In this document: one piece after another, positions 19,599 to 24,178 of the stretch
How positions within the stretch are numbered: the stretch's first letter is position 1
Layout: every line of letters begins with the position of its first letter
Origin: Lachnospiraceae bacterium
Lineage (GTDB): Bacteria; Bacillota; Clostridia; Lachnospirales; Lachnospiraceae
NCBI GenBank assembly: GCA_017460885.1
Contig: JAFUAB010000014.1
Span: 1-47,061 of the forward strand
DNA length: 47,061 bases
Reading direction: 5' to 3'
The notes under the pieces: model-generated
The model's input: the letters and a program-made list of their open reading frames with translations, nothing else
The model's database searches: none
Told to the model about the DNA's origin: nothing
Program-made: the position numbers and the translations under genes

Positions 19599-19720
19599 TT
19601 ATAATGTTATAAACGTCTTGCTTTATGCAGATGAAAATACAATGGATTAAGGATATGCCGGCAGGCTTGACTGACTGCTTGACAGATTCTGAGACCAGCC
19701 TTGAGAGGGGGATACGACAA

Positions 19721-21727
19721 GTGAACAAAAAAACTTCAATTATGGACAGTATGAAGATGAAGCTGATCTTCATCACCGCGGGAGTATGTATCATTCCGCT
19801 GCTGATAGCAACGTTGCTCAGCTACGTCAATCTTAAGAATGTTGCCCAGGATGACGCGAAGGAGCTGAATCTGCGACTGGCGGAAAAAGTATCGCAGGAC
19901 ATTGAACTGACTATCGATTCCAGTTTCCGTACCATGGTTCAGATGGCGGATACACCTTCGGTCCGTGAACTGATCGCGGATCCTTCCAACGAAGCTCTGC
20001 TCAATGAGGTAGTTAAAGAGCTTCAGACTTTGGTTACTAATGCGGGAGACGGTAATTCCACGGTTGTTACCGGTGCAGACGGTATGAACGTGGCCAGGTC
20101 TACCGGTAATTTCGTCGATATTTCCGAGAGAGAGTATTTCAAACAGGCAATGCAGGGAAATACCTATCTTTCCGAACTCTCTGTCAGCAAGACAACAGGA
20201 GCACGTATCATAGTTCCCGCGGTTCCGGTTTTTGCCGAGGACGGTAAGACACCCATCGGTGCCCTGACCCGTAACTATGACGTGGATTATCTGCATGATA
20301 AGCTTGTTGCGGATGCAGGCACCGGACAGATCATGTTTATCATGGATGGAACAGGTCAGGTTATCGCCACATCAGAGCAGGAGATCACTGCTGAGGACGA
20401 TATCAGCAGGGCAGGCACAGAGGTATACTCCGAGTCGCTTACAGCTGTCGAGGGAAGCTTTGTAGAAAGCTTTAACGGAAATAAATACGTAACTTCATTT
20501 GTAAAAGAAGCGCAGACAGGCTGGACCATCGTGGTTTCCACTGAGTATGCGGTGATCATGTCGAATGCGAACAAAGCCGTCGTTATCCTGGTTATTATAG
20601 GCATCGTCCTCGCAGCAATAGCGGTTGTAATAGCGTTTATGATCGGTAATGCCATTGACCGTCCCATCGATAAGATCGATGAGGCTCTGGAACATCTGGC
20701 TGACGGCCGGTTCACTGATATTGAAGTATATCTTGACCGCAGAGATGAGTTCGGCAACATGATACGCAATGTCAACTCGGTTATCGATAAGCTTCGTGAT
20801 ATAGTTGCCAATGTGCGCGTGACTGCCAATGATCTGGAGGAGGATGCGGTAGAGCTTACGGATTCCGCGAGAAAGATCTCTAACAATATGAGCGGTATCT
20901 CCGAGGCGGTACATGAGATAGCATCCGGAGCAACACAGCAGGCTGAGGAGATCCAGAACGCTTCCATTAACTGCCAGGTTATCTCCGACAATGTCGAGAG
21001 CGTAACTGCAGATGCCGGCAGTCTCGCAAGCACTGCGGAGATCATGAGTCAGGGCTCACAGTCCTCACAGGACAAGCTGCGTGATCTTCAGCATTCTTCG
21101 GAGCAGATGGCCGGGGCTATCAATCAGATCACTGAGACCATCGCCGCAACAGGTACGGCAGTTGACAAGATATCATCCAAGATCGAAGCCATCGATTCTA
21201 TTGCTTCCCAGACCAGTCTGCTGGCTCTGAATGCGTCCATAGAGGCAGCCAGAGCAGGTGAGGCAGGACGAGGATTTGCGGTCGTGGCTGAGGAGATCGG
21301 CAAGCTTGCTTCCGATTCCGCTAATTCGGCTAACGAGATCCGGATCGAGATGAGCAACCTGCTGACCCAGTCACAGGAAGCTGTCAGAGTTGCCGATGAT
21401 GTATCCAAGGCAAATAAGGAACAGTATACTATCATCGAGGATACCGTAGAGGCGATCCAGAGCCTCATCGATGGTATCAATACCACGGTGTCCGGAGTGC
21501 AGAACATCAATATGAGCGCAGATGCCTGCGACCAGTCCAAGGAGGTTGTTGTGGACGCGATGAACAATCTGTCCGCGATCTCACAGGAGAACGCAGCCAG
21601 CACAGAGGAGACCTCAGCATCTGTAGCAGAGATCGACAATACTCTGAGCGAACTGGCTCACGAGACCTCTTCACTTAAGGAGCACGCTGATACGCTTATG
21701 TCTGAGATGGAATTCTTCCAGATCTGA
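19721..21727 (+). CDS. methyl-accepting chemotaxis protein with dCache sensor
   Basis: A 668-residue transmembrane chemoreceptor. TM1 about 15-36 ([19 protein letters not shown]), an extracellular double-Cache domain about 40-285 ([16 protein letters not shown] is the typical PAS-like signature), TM2 about 287-308 ([20 protein letters not shown]), HAMP about 310-362 and a cytoplasmic signalling hairpin whose tip reads [20 protein letters not shown] (about 500-520). It would control CheA and so flagellar rotation; the ligand is unknown but dCache domains often bind amino acids. GTG 19721 is preferred because GAGAGGGGG lies upstream; ATG 19625 has none. It shows that the organism is probably motile, relevant to the CsrA-like signals nearby. 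Confidence 0.93.
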
Positions 21728-21762
21728 CGAAGCCGCAAATGAAATAGTGAAATGAACAGCTG

Positions 21763-21795
21763 ACCCGCCCGGACTTGTACCGGGCGGGTTTTTGT
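21763..21795 (+). terminator. rho-independent terminator after the chemoreceptor gene
   Basis: ACCCGCCCGG (21763-21772) pairs perfectly with CCGGGCGGGT (21780-21789), loop ACTTGTA, followed by TTTTG. The GC-rich stem could also stop RNA coming from the other side, although the minus-strand tail (CAGCTGTTCATTT) is only weakly T-rich. Confidence 0.9.
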
Positions 21796-21796
21796 G

Positions 21797-21975
21797 AGAT
21801 ACTTGGAATTGGAAATACATCCATGTATTTCCAAACAATTCCTGATGCCATCCTTGGCATTAAGGCTACAAGTGCATCCATGCACTTGTGAACAGCCTGA
21901 AAGCCATCCTGGCTTTCGGGGTAATACGCAGTCCGGGCATTACGGCTACAAGTGCATCCATGCACTTGGGGTAGG
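21797..21975 (-). ncRNA. candidate CsrB-like CsrA-sponge RNA (hypothetical)
   Basis: Read on the minus strand, the five main loops give AUGGAUG, CAGGAUG, AUGGAUG, CAAGGAUG and AUGGAUG, each at the top of a stem, in 5' to 3' order. CsrA/RsmA binds GGA in hairpin loops (SELEX consensus RUACARGGAUGU), and CsrB-type RNAs hold many such hairpins. The hairpin at 21811-21832 matches this consensus at 11 of 12 positions by my count, and the 21845-21860 hairpin matches the CARGGAUG core fully. The GC-rich hairpin at 21763-21789 could end the RNA. Against it: I found no convincing minus-strand promoter (at best TTAATT-17-CATAAA near 22013-21985), and no CsrB-type RNA is known to me in Firmicutes, where FliW antagonises CsrA. 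Boundaries are approximate. Confidence 0.3.
21805..21968. repeat. array of short hairpins sharing a TCC/GGA loop
   Basis: Five near-perfect hairpins follow each other: 21811-21832 (GGAAATACA stem, loop TCCA; outer GGAATTG/CAATTCC extends it to 21805-21842), 21845-21860 (ATGCCA, loop TCCT), 21868-21889 (ACAAGTGCA, loop TCCA; outer AGGCT/AGCCT to 21863-21898), 21899-21917 (GAAAGCCA, loop TCC) and 21949-21968 (CAAGTGCA, loop TCCA). A sixth, weaker one (GTAAT/ATTAC, 21921-21943) also has GGA unpaired on the minus strand. The stems differ while the loops are conserved, which points to selection on the loop and not simple duplication. Only the third and fifth share a stem sequence. Short frames through it on both strands look non-coding. 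Confidence 0.85.
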
Positions 21976-21981
21976 ATTGGT

Positions 21982-22010
21982 TTGTTTATGTTTACTCTAT
22001 ATGATAAAAT
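21982..22010 (+). promoter_or_regulatory. possible promoter of the glycan cluster
   Basis: TTGTTT (21982-21987), 17 bases, TAAAAT (22005-22010): identical hexamers and spacing to the secA promoter. It lies downstream of the hairpin array, so the plus-strand transcript would not include the array. It overlaps the first codons if pseI starts at ATG 21988; transcription from here would require a start such as GTG 22024. Confidence 0.4.
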
Positions 22011-23016
22011 TAACAGGGGCGAGGTGTATATAATTGCCGAAATGAGCGCGAATCACGGCGGCTCTCTTGACAACGCTCTTGAGATAGTGAGAAGGGCTGC
22101 CGGGGCCGGAGCGGACTGCCTCAAGATACAGACATATACGGCCGACAGTCTTACTATTGACTGTGACAATGAGTATTTCCGCATCAAACACGGACTCTGG
22201 AAGGGGTATAAGCTGTACGATCTCTATACCGAAGCCGGTACACCGTATGAGTGGCATGAAGCGATCAAAGCAGAGTGTGAAAAATGCGGGATTGATTTTT
22301 TATCTACTCCCTTTTCCGTGAAGGATACGGATTTTCTGGAGAGTATCGGCGCAGAAGCATATAAGATCGCGAGCTTTGAGCTTGTGGATATCCCCCTGAT
22401 CGAGTATGTGGCAGCTAAGCATAAGCCTATGATCATTTCCACGGGTATGGCTTCTCCCGAGGAGATGCAGGAAGCCGTCGATGCATGCCGCAGGGTCGGA
22501 AATGACAGCATAGTTCTGCTCAAATGCTGCAGTGAGTATCCGGCTCCCTGGGCGGATATGCACCTTGGTAACATTCCGGATATGAAGCGGAGATTCAACC
22601 TTCCCATCGGCCTTTCGGATCATAGCGAAGGCAGTCTCGGGGCGGTAGTCGGCGTTGCTCTTGGGGCATGTGTCGTTGAAAAGCATGTCTGTCTGCCCGG
22701 TGTTGACAGTGCCGACAGCGGATTCAGTATGCCGGTCGATGACTTTGCCGGCATGGTACGGGACGTTCGCAATGCCAGTCTGATAGCCCGGGGACCTGAT
22801 TATACACTGACTCCGGGAGAGCAGTCACAGACCGTCTTCAGACGCAGTATATTTGCGATCTCCGATATATCTGCAGACGAACCCTTTACAGCAGAAAATA
22901 TAGGCGTCATCCGTCCCGGTGACGGCATGAAACCGAAGTATTATAATAAATTATTGGGTACCGTTTCCAAACGGGCATACAGACGGGGAGAACCGATCAA
23001 ACATGACATCATTTAA
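21988..23016 (+). CDS. pseI: pseudaminic acid synthase (NeuB family)
   Basis: Condenses phosphoenolpyruvate with 2,4-diacetamido-2,4,6-trideoxy-L-altrose to pseudaminic acid, a nonulosonic acid used on flagellins and capsules. From ATG 21988 it has 342 residues. The NeuB-type TIM barrel (YIIAEMSANHGGSL, ADCLKIQTYTADSLTIDCDN, FLSTPFSVKD, YKIASFEL, GLSDHSEGS, EKH) is followed by a C-terminal SAF antifreeze-like domain (VFRRSIFAISDI to the end). The SANH...KIQTYT form and the ...DCDNEYF block match PseI more than sialic acid NeuB. The ATG at 21952 lies inside the hairpin array and is rejected; GTG 22024 is an alternative start. It opens a long co-directional glycan cluster. Confidence 0.88.
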   Translation: MFTLYDKINRGEVYIIAEMSANHGGSLDNALEIVRRAAGAGADCLKIQTYTADSLTIDCDNEYFRIKHGLWKGYKLYDLYTEAGTPYEWHEAIKAECEKCGIDFLSTPFSVKDTDFLESIGAEAYKIASFELVDIPLIEYVAAKHKPMIISTGMASPEEMQEAVDACRRVGNDSIVLLKCCSEYPAPWADMHLGNIPDMKRRFNLPIGLSDHSEGSLGAVVGVALGACVVEKHVCLPGVDSADSGFSMPVDDFAGMVRDVRNASLIARGPDYTLTPGEQSQTVFRRSIFAISDISADEPFTAENIGVIRPGDGMKPKYYNKLLGTVSKRAYRRGEPIKHDII

Positions 23017-24178
23017 AAACAACGGCAGGTTAAAGCTTCTCATTATAGTGGGTACCAGGCCTGAAATAATCAGACTTTCCGAGGTGATAAAAAAATGCCG
23101 CAGGTATTTTGATGTGATACTGGCTCATACCGGACAGAATTATGATTATAATCTGAATGGCATTTTCTTTCGTGATCTTAAACTTGAAGAACCCGAGGTA
23201 TACCTGAATGCCGTAGGGTCAGATCTTGGAGAGACAATGGGCAATATCATTTCTTCCAGCTATAAGCTTATGAAGGAGACAGAACCCGACGCGGTGCTTG
23301 TACTCGGCGATACCAACAGCTGCCTTTCGGTGATAGGTGCCAAAAGGCTGCATATTCCAATCTTCCATATGGAAGCAGGTAACAGGTGCAAAGATGAATG
23401 CCTGCCTGAGGAGACAAATCGCAGAATAGTTGATATCATTTCGGATGTTAATATGGCGTATTCGGAGCATGCACGCCGGTATCTTGCAGAGTGCGGACTG
23501 CCCCCGGAAAGAACCTTTGTTACCGGTTCACCCATGGCAGAGGTACTTAAGAGTAACCTTGAGGAAATCTTAAACAGTGATGTCCTTGACAGACTGGAAA
23601 AGGAAACCGGAAGAGAGCTTAAACCCTGCAGATACATTCTTCTGTCCGCACACAGAGAAGAGAACATAGATACAGAATCCAATTTCAATTCGCTTTTTAA
23701 TGCAGTCAATCGTATGGCTGAAAAATATGATATGCCGATCCTTTATTCATGTCACCCAAGGAGTGCGGCACGTCTGGAGTCCAGTGGATTTAGACTGGAT
23801 GAACGGGTTATCCGTCATGAACCGCTGGGATTCCATGACTATAACCATTTACAGATGAATGCGTATGCGGTGGTCTCCGATTCCGGTACACTTCCGGAGG
23901 AGAGCAGTTTCTTTCTGAGTATAGATCACCCTGTTTCCGCAGTATGTATCAGAACCTCCACGGAACGTCCGGAGGCGATCGATGCAGGGTGTTTTGTTCT
24001 TGCGGGAATTGATGAAAATGGATTGCTTCAGGCTGTCGATACTGCCGTTTCGATGCGTGAAAACGGAGATATCGGGGCTCCCGTTACGGATTACACAGAC
24101 ACGAATGTTTCCGAAAAGGTAGTCGGTATAATACGAAGCTATACGGGGATTGTAAACAAAATGGTGTGGAGAAAGTGA
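23003..24178 (+). CDS. fnlC: UDP-N-acetylglucosamine 2-epimerase, CapG/FnlC type
   Basis: A 391-residue protein of the WecB fold (GT-B like), beginning LKLLIIVGTRPEIIRLSEVI, with HTGQNYDYNLNGIFF, LVLGDTNSCLS, HMEAGNRCKDECLPEETNRR and SAHREENIDTE. The HMEAGNRC form and the DTNSCL loop are typical of CapG/FnlC, which epimerises C2 in the last step to UDP-N-acetyl-L-fucosamine, rather than plain UDP-GlcNAc to UDP-ManNAc. The presence of CapE- and CapF-like genes at 28866 and 31154 supports this. It overlaps pseI by 14 bases. The late DSGTLPEESSFF segment is the family's nucleotide-binding end. Confidence 0.88.
   Translation: MTSFKNNGRLKLLIIVGTRPEIIRLSEVIKKCRRYFDVILAHTGQNYDYNLNGIFFRDLKLEEPEVYLNAVGSDLGETMGNIISSSYKLMKETEPDAVLVLGDTNSCLSVIGAKRLHIPIFHMEAGNRCKDECLPEETNRRIVDIISDVNMAYSEHARRYLAECGLPPERTFVTGSPMAEVLKSNLEEILNSDVLDRLEKETGRELKPCRYILLSAHREENIDTESNFNSLFNAVNRMAEKYDMPILYSCHPRSAARLESSGFRLDERVIRHEPLGFHDYNHLQMNAYAVVSDSGTLPEESSFFLSIDHPVSAVCIRTSTERPEAIDAGCFVLAGIDENGLLQAVDTAVSMRENGDIGAPVTDYTDTNVSEKVVGIIRSYTGIVNKMVWRK

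Follow-up and report, generated by a model that had tools for sequence, protein, structure and literature searches.

Sponge RNAs of the CsrB type are stand-alone genes with a promoter and a terminator of their own. As of the available text of PMC4333381, such RNAs (CsrB, CsrC, RsmX, RsmY and RsmZ) had been identified only in Gammaproteobacteria. For Clostridia, Bacillales and Lactobacillales, the same text proposed in 2014 that TwoAYGGAY (RF01731) and the reverse complement of Bacillaceae-1 (RF01690) are CsrA-binding small RNAs, the strand of Bacillaceae-1 being uncertain. TwoAYGGAY had been among 104 candidate RNAs presented in 2010 (PMC2864571, available portion). REP elements, palindromes of the GTAG/CGTC type, are described in the available part of PMC3733652 as short dispersed hairpins whose stems vary by compensation.

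We analysed a stretch of 47,061 nucleotides from a Lachnospiraceae genome (contig JAFUAB010000014.1; hereafter the window), in which an array of hairpins occupies positions 21805-21968. A sequence-only reading had proposed that the minus strand of this array is a CsrB-like sponge RNA, and that no such RNA had been described in Firmicutes; the second statement is wrong, given the 2014 proposals for TwoAYGGAY and the reverse complement of Bacillaceae-1. The array belongs to a new repeat family, carried by a single genus of Lachnospiraceae and by a few of its relatives, which has no Rfam match in our scans. We think it probable, with some reserve, that the family is a dispersed, copy-number-variable and position-locked hairpin repeat of REP or MITE type that acts in cis on host leaders, and that it is not a minus-strand sponge.

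The arrays share features with each of these systems. The two A-Y-GGA-Y-like hairpins of TwoAYGGAY, 28-31 nt apart and multi-copy in Lachnospiraceae, are similar to the minus strand of the arrays; TwoAYGGAY differs in its long outer helix, its model of 168 positions and its absence of leader orientation, and no scanned array reaches its Rfam threshold. The family loop is AYGGAY, whereas the second and fourth loops in the window read AAGGAU and AGGAU, so the Y is not kept. With CsrB, CsrC, RsmX, RsmY and RsmZ the arrays have in common repeated GGA loops, on the minus strand, and a csrA gene in the genome, but they are scattered, mostly sense-oriented leader repeats. Bacillaceae-1, whose reverse complement was proposed to hold CsrA sites, gives no cmscan match to the arrays. 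Unlike REP elements, the array units stand in tandem head-to-tail and are position-locked; within 8 nt and in either orientation, at most 7 of 130 units carry a GTAG tag and at most 6 of 130 a CGTC tag (the 130 rows drew on 89 loci, a subset of all matches, with 43 rows from a single Butyrivibrio assembly). G-T pairs are almost absent from the arrays, whereas GT pairing often occurs in GTAG repeats according to the available part of PMC3733652. Presence or absence at orthologous sites, seen at three promoters, recalls MITEs.

The array in the window

On the plus strand, the array follows a gene for a methyl-accepting chemotaxis protein (19625-21727; Pfam dCache_1 and MCPsignal), whose predicted intrinsic terminator, CCCGCCCGG...CCGGGCGGG followed by TTTTT, lies at 21762-21794 and also pairs in the computed fold. 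It precedes a gene for a NeuB/SAF sialic-acid-type synthase, read from the ATG at 21988 to 23016 on the plus strand (Pfam). A UDP-GlcNAc 2-epimerase-type protein comes after NeuB (window 21988-24178; Pfam). Presumably this pair points to a sialic or legionaminic acid pathway, not to the pseudaminic acid pathway named in the sequence-only reading.

Read directly, the sequence bears out the earlier count of five strong hairpins and one weak hairpin. The strong stem-loops lie at about 21811-21832, 21844-21861, 21868-21889, 21899-21917 and 21949-21968, and the weak one at about 21921-21943. All five strong loops contain A(N)GGAU on the minus strand, as had been claimed (AUGGAU three times, AAGGAU and AGGAU), which on the plus strand reads AUCC(N)U. 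Folding z-scores are -6.57 for the minus and -7.80 for the plus strand, with 0 of 200 dinucleotide shuffles as good on either.

The first hairpin is enclosed by an outer stem (21805-21810 with 21837-21842), which makes the real unit 57-58 nt long. We built a covariance model, R1, from an alignment of 20 such units. Unit 1, at 21805-21862 on the plus strand, matches R1 with 75.6 bits, its sequence having been in that alignment; within the outer stem it has an inner stem (21811-21818/21825-21832) around the loop ATCCAT (21819-21824) and a 3' bulge AAAC (21833-21836), and it ends in a small hairpin with the loop ATCCTT (21844-21861). Unit 2, at 21862-21917 on the same strand and absent from the alignment, matches with 54.3 bits. 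Its outer stem is 21863-21867/21894-21898, its inner stem 21868-21875/21882-21889 around ATCCAT (21876-21881), its bulge GAAC and its small hairpin 21899-21917, with the loop ATCCT. A degenerate small hairpin follows, also on the plus strand, with GTAAT and ATTAC around AGTCCG (21921-21943). Unit 3 consists of an inner hairpin only (21949-21968, plus strand; CAAGTGC and GCACTTG around ATCCAT), with a weak R1 match of 20.2 bits at 21950-21967, and repeats 21869-21888. Directly 5' of unit 1 is a -10-like hexamer, GATACT (4/6), plus 1 nt (21798-21804, plus strand); this hexamer is weak in the window, and many loci elsewhere in the genus have a strong one.

A search of both strands of the window with the hairpin 20-mer, allowing at most three mismatches, gave four matches at two places, where 0.01 were expected. 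Varying stems around a fixed loop had been taken as an argument against mere duplication. The stems do co-vary; an identical 20-mer recurs in two of the five strong hairpins, and duplication is thus part of the history of the array.

Copies, structure and covariation of the repeat family

Searched with the array as DNA, the window's own genome (G000) gave 60 matches (E<=10) spread across numerous contigs, and R1 found 46 units of the 57-nt hairpin element at E<1e-4, at 35 loci. Contigs C20/C34 and C32/C38 are assembly duplicates, which leaves 33 distinct loci. These pairs are nearly identical around their arrays, so that part of the assembly, for which contamination is given as 6.64%, is duplicated.

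All seven genomes of the genus that we searched contain R1 matches at E<=0.01: G000 has 52, and the remaining six have between 1 and 28 each. The highest of these six counts belongs to G304, taken as Lachnospiraceae bacterium XBB2008 (28 matches), and 14 matches fall in G303, taken as the buffalo-rumen MAG RGIG8017; both equations rest on contig positions that agree exactly. An uncultured Butyrivibrio MAG (G300) holds 98 (E<=0.1), and G041 and G135 hold one each. Across the wider family, where our searches with R1, with a broader model (R2) and with TwoAYGGAY used stricter filters, R1 matched 6 of 299 genomes at E<=0.01. Two of the six are weak: G210 (26.5 bits, in a genome 68% complete) and G261 (28.7 bits). 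R2 matched 4 of 299, fewer than R1. Plasmid and phage collections gave no array match, Rfam scans of the window and of the other arrays scanned gave none at gathering thresholds or at E<=1, and literature searches for the repeat itself listed nothing that fits.

Each unit consists of an outer stem of 6 bp around an 8-bp inner hairpin, whose loop is mostly RUCCRU, with a 3' RRAC bulge and, about 31 nt further on, a small hairpin that has UCC in its loop; units often stand in tandem. Among 120 distinct units the inner loop reads ATCCAT in 80, ATCCGT in 23, ATCCCT in 5, GTCCGT in 3 and otherwise in the remaining nine; the bulge is again mostly RRAC. The distance from loop to loop within a unit is 30-32 nt (105 of 120 units measured).

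The stems vary with their pairing kept. In the 20-unit alignment covariation is 0.699, against 0.184 when shuffled and at most 0.174 when slid; 95.5% of cells are paired, and 16 of 19 pairs show two-sided changes. The 120 distinct units, in an alignment fitted to the model, contain 2158 Watson-Crick, 27 G-U, 11 A-C and 55 other pairs. At seven orthologous sites in two species, 103 of 131 stem pairs are the same, 25 are changed on both sides and 3 on one side (2 further pairs are gapped), and 3 of 42 inner-loop positions differ. On the two questions set earlier for a covariance search, stems co-vary and GGA, on the minus strand, stays in the loop.

The G-U share is 1.2% of array pairs, against 24 of 229 pairs in 10 tRNAs from the relatives' stretches, and the wobble pairs that do occur show little strand asymmetry. 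The low wobble rate suggests that pairing may be kept at the DNA level or on both strands. Folding was not decisive for the choice of strand, the arrays having 75 G-U pairs sense and 57 antisense; of 103 arrays, 64 fold better in the sense direction.

Two further features of the arrays deserve mention. The 5' outer arm of the last unit recurs directly after that unit in 15 of 33 arrays of G000, 7 of 22 of G304, 1 of 7 of G303 and 16 of 32 of G300, where letter shuffles give 3.5, 1.3, 0.5 and 3.0, respectively; with such a terminal copy, two alternative pairing registers are possible. At one locus of G000 (L017, C47:49300-49440), a unit has apparently been inserted in the inner hairpin of another, giving nested copies.

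Orientation, promoters and stop codons

The downstream gene is sense to the array in 93 of 106 cases (p = 5e-16; several genomes, with ORF heuristics), a count that covers 107 arrays, one of them without a downstream ORF and at least L032/L143 counted twice. Among the sense arrays 58 have codirectional and 34 divergent neighbours and one is defined on the downstream side only, against 9 and 4 among those not sense; codirectional neighbours alone give 58 against 9 (p = 7e-10). The strand transcribed with the gene therefore carries AUCC loops, not GGA.

For 104 distinct arrays we scored the sequence just upstream. In G000, G303 and G304, a TATAAT-like hexamer (5/6 or better) stands no more than 6 nt before 43 of 62 arrays, and in 37 of the 62 the gap after this -10 box is exactly 1 nt; control positions carry such a hexamer in 1.6-3.7% of cases. 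The hexamer precedes 4 of the 32 arrays of G300 and none of the 10 elsewhere (rest of the genus, G116 and G135). The stop codon of the upstream ORF lies within 8 nt of the array start in 18 of 32 cases in G300 and 5 of 11 in other genomes; among random positions 2.2% have a stop in a -12 to +9 window. Promoter scores, computed with L068, L069, L070, L073 and L074 left out, are 8.61 on the sense strand upstream of arrays of the genus against 7.40 in shuffles, and 7.81 against 7.47 in G300. Antisense scores downstream of arrays are 7.74 against 7.62 in the genus (66 arrays) and 7.72 against 8.11 in G300 (32 arrays), with no enrichment above shuffles over these 98 arrays.

Three orthologous promoters carry the element in some species and lack it in G041, G302 or G306, a comparison in which gain and loss are not told apart. 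At two of them, G041 and G302 have the -10 box and then a start codon within 6-7 nt, and XBB2008 has the element between the -10 box and the ATG at both. At these two XBB2008 sites the right end of the element bears a second -10-like hexamer, which has the ancestral spacing to the ATG, and the ends vary; the G000 copy at one of the two promoters is without this second hexamer. The third promoter is a pfkA-like leader. G000 and XBB2008 have the element there; G302 and G306 lack it at the promoter and have one unit some 340 nt upstream. TATAAT followed by ATG within 6-7 nt is seen at L274 (about 17240) and L270 (about 17080), and genes of this type apparently have leaderless mRNAs in the genus.

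The genes downstream of arrays (49 predicted starts) are unrelated to one another, and inspection of them by eye reveals no evident functional theme. From their sequences we take some of them to be rplF, pfkA, gap, pgk, malQ and proC. The occurrence of pfkA, gap and pgk is worth noting and unproven as a theme. At L010 (G000:C27:60405-60461) a unit separates a -10 box from a tRNA gene, identified by a tRNA match, and an effect on translation alone cannot therefore be the general role of the element. A family fixed in its distance to -10 boxes or stops would alter the 5' end of many transcripts.

CsrA, TwoAYGGAY and competing explanations

As the sequence-only reading had anticipated, G000 contains csrA, beside fliW- and flgL-like genes recognised by eye. 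Of the 12 array carriers that we searched for csrA, 11 have it; G210, with its 26.5-bit array match and 68% completeness, does not. The CsrA proteins of G000 and G300 keep the RNA-contact residues L4, R6, V/I42 and R44. L4 and R44 are named in the available text of PMC7652899, where SELEX with CsrA gave the consensus RUACARGGAUGU, mostly in hairpins of at most 4 pairs. By their letters, the minus-strand loops of the arrays resemble CsrA sites.

TwoAYGGAY occurs in 45 of 299 family genomes, with at least nine copies in 14 of the 45 (copy numbers per genome are lower bounds), and has two copies over cut-off in G000. All but one of the 45 (G168) have csrA, against 154 of 299 overall (Fisher p = 1.7e-13, a statistic that ignores relatedness among genomes spanning 298 genera). 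This nesting is independent support for the 2014 proposal, reportedly by Gardner and Eldai, that TwoAYGGAY binds CsrA. Its loops are 28-31 nt apart in 21 of the 22 loci parsed, out of 42. Applied to the arrays of G000, the TwoAYGGAY model reaches at most 33.3 bits, on the minus strand, against a gathering threshold of 43 bits, and finds no match at E<=1 in window positions 21500-22300. In G261 the weak R1 match and a TwoAYGGAY copy overlap on opposite strands. Given this overlap and the similar loops and spacing, the arrays have the look of a TwoAYGGAY hairpin pair in reverse complement, set in leaders. TwoAYGGAY has no match at E<=0.01 in the array carriers G304, G303, G041, G135 and G300.

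GGA loops, csrA and its fliW-like neighbour are what a minus-strand sponge RNA gene of the CsrB/RsmY type, beside the chemoreceptor gene, would lead one to expect. Copies at 35 loci, scattered among unrelated genes and mostly sense to them, argue against it, as do antisense promoter signals no better than chance and the lack of an Rfam match. Many scattered copies of this kind are among the outcomes that the sequence-only reading had itself named as refuting it. In the window, 1 minus-strand promoter-like site was found with 1.2 expected, and a mechanical scan listed no minus-strand terminator, although the same scan missed the visible plus-strand one at 21762-21794. A CsrB-like gene on the minus strand is unlikely from this placement, and we attach very little weight to it as an explanation of the array. 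We take somewhat more seriously, as a doubtful possibility, that the minus strand works as an antisense CsrA site, the arrays jointly titrating or recruiting CsrA; a pair of CA(N)GGAUG hairpins at a spacing of about 31 nt would bind a CsrA dimer, on antisense leader transcripts or on the template strand. The RsmE consensus has two free positions, at which most of the loop variation falls, and the minus-strand inner loop is A-N-GGA-N in 116 of 120 units. The spacing of 30-32 nt, close to that of TwoAYGGAY, the csrA genes of the carriers with their contact residues kept, and the nesting of TwoAYGGAY in csrA genomes point the same way. However, the arrays are sense to genes, promoter scores on the antisense strand are level with shuffles in the genus and fall below them in G300, the scan listed no minus-strand terminator, and we know of no established binding of CsrA to hairpin DNA. 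Moreover, the base before GGA is mostly U or C where SELEX gave R, and stems of 8 pairs plus an outer stem contrast with the 4 or fewer of most SELEX hairpins (PMC7652899, available text). A sense counterpart, in which AUCC leader loops kiss the GGA hairpins of RNAs that bind CsrA, TwoAYGGAY for example, and so act against the sponge, draws on the exact complementarity of RUCCRU (106 of 120 units) to AYGGAY, on the like loop spacings and on the two TwoAYGGAY copies of G000. That complementarity would be automatic if the families were opposite strands of one design, and G304, G303, G041, G135 and G300, with 28, 14, 1, 1 and 98 array matches, have no TwoAYGGAY at E<=0.01, for which reason we rank such a kissing partner low and hold it improbable. 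A strict scan of 779 kb (G303, G302 and G041) yielded 7 hairpin pairs with GGA loops, each of them array antisense, and none for three control loops; having missed the TwoAYGGAY at G302:C43:805-970, it is weak evidence.

We favour a dispersed repeat of REP or MITE type acting in cis, in which hairpin-forming DNA would spread and persist, then form the 5'-terminal or intercistronic hairpin of a host transcript, and there may affect stability, processing or the binding of a loop-recognising factor, which the fixed loop pair suggests would be two-headed. Several observations sit uneasily with it. Array ends vary, and no clean target-site duplication is apparent; the promoter lock is not general, at 0 of 10 arrays elsewhere and 4 of 32 in G300; the exact -10 spacing despite differing boxes, and the compensated stems at orthologous sites, look like selection; and the near absence of G-U may reflect palindrome correction, not function. 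Transcription as a rule starts about 7 nt after the -10 box, so that the first outer 5' arm would be untranscribed and its pairing unexplained at the RNA level. An alternative is purely selfish hairpin DNA without host effect, its stems kept paired by quasi-palindrome correction during replication. In its favour, both G-U (27 of 2251 cells) and A-C (11 of 2251) are rare, neighbouring units of a tandem share 90% identity or more in 17 of 23 cases while mean identity across loci is 0.72-0.78, and the neighbouring genes are unrelated. But palindrome correction cannot hold the strongly conserved loops and RRAC bulge, and array orientation and the spacing to -10 boxes or stop codons also count against a purely selfish element, which we judge unlikely.

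TwoAYGGAY and the arrays could also be one design, a GGA loop pair about 30 nt apart with its UCC complement opposite, serving a distributed CsrA network; we hold this to be an outside chance. If it were true, dozens of leader copies would, on the strand opposite the mRNA, set CsrA occupancy or be antagonised by CsrA, and the network would be distributed, replacing a single CsrB-like gene. Whether Clostridia control CsrA through RNA in addition to FliW can be put to a direct test in XBB2008, a relative.

TwoAYGGAY as a leader element in its own right was rejected, since its 42 loci show no strand bias: 16 are convergent, other arrangements number 12, 8 and 3, and 3 have one side undefined. The Rfam strand folds better at 28 of the 42 loci, with 170 G-U pairs against 197. 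Close inverted TwoAYGGAY pairs, about 140-300 nt apart, occur at G008:C47 and C33, G037:C123, G208:C69 and G116:C7, and their outer stems, which are long, look specific to each locus.
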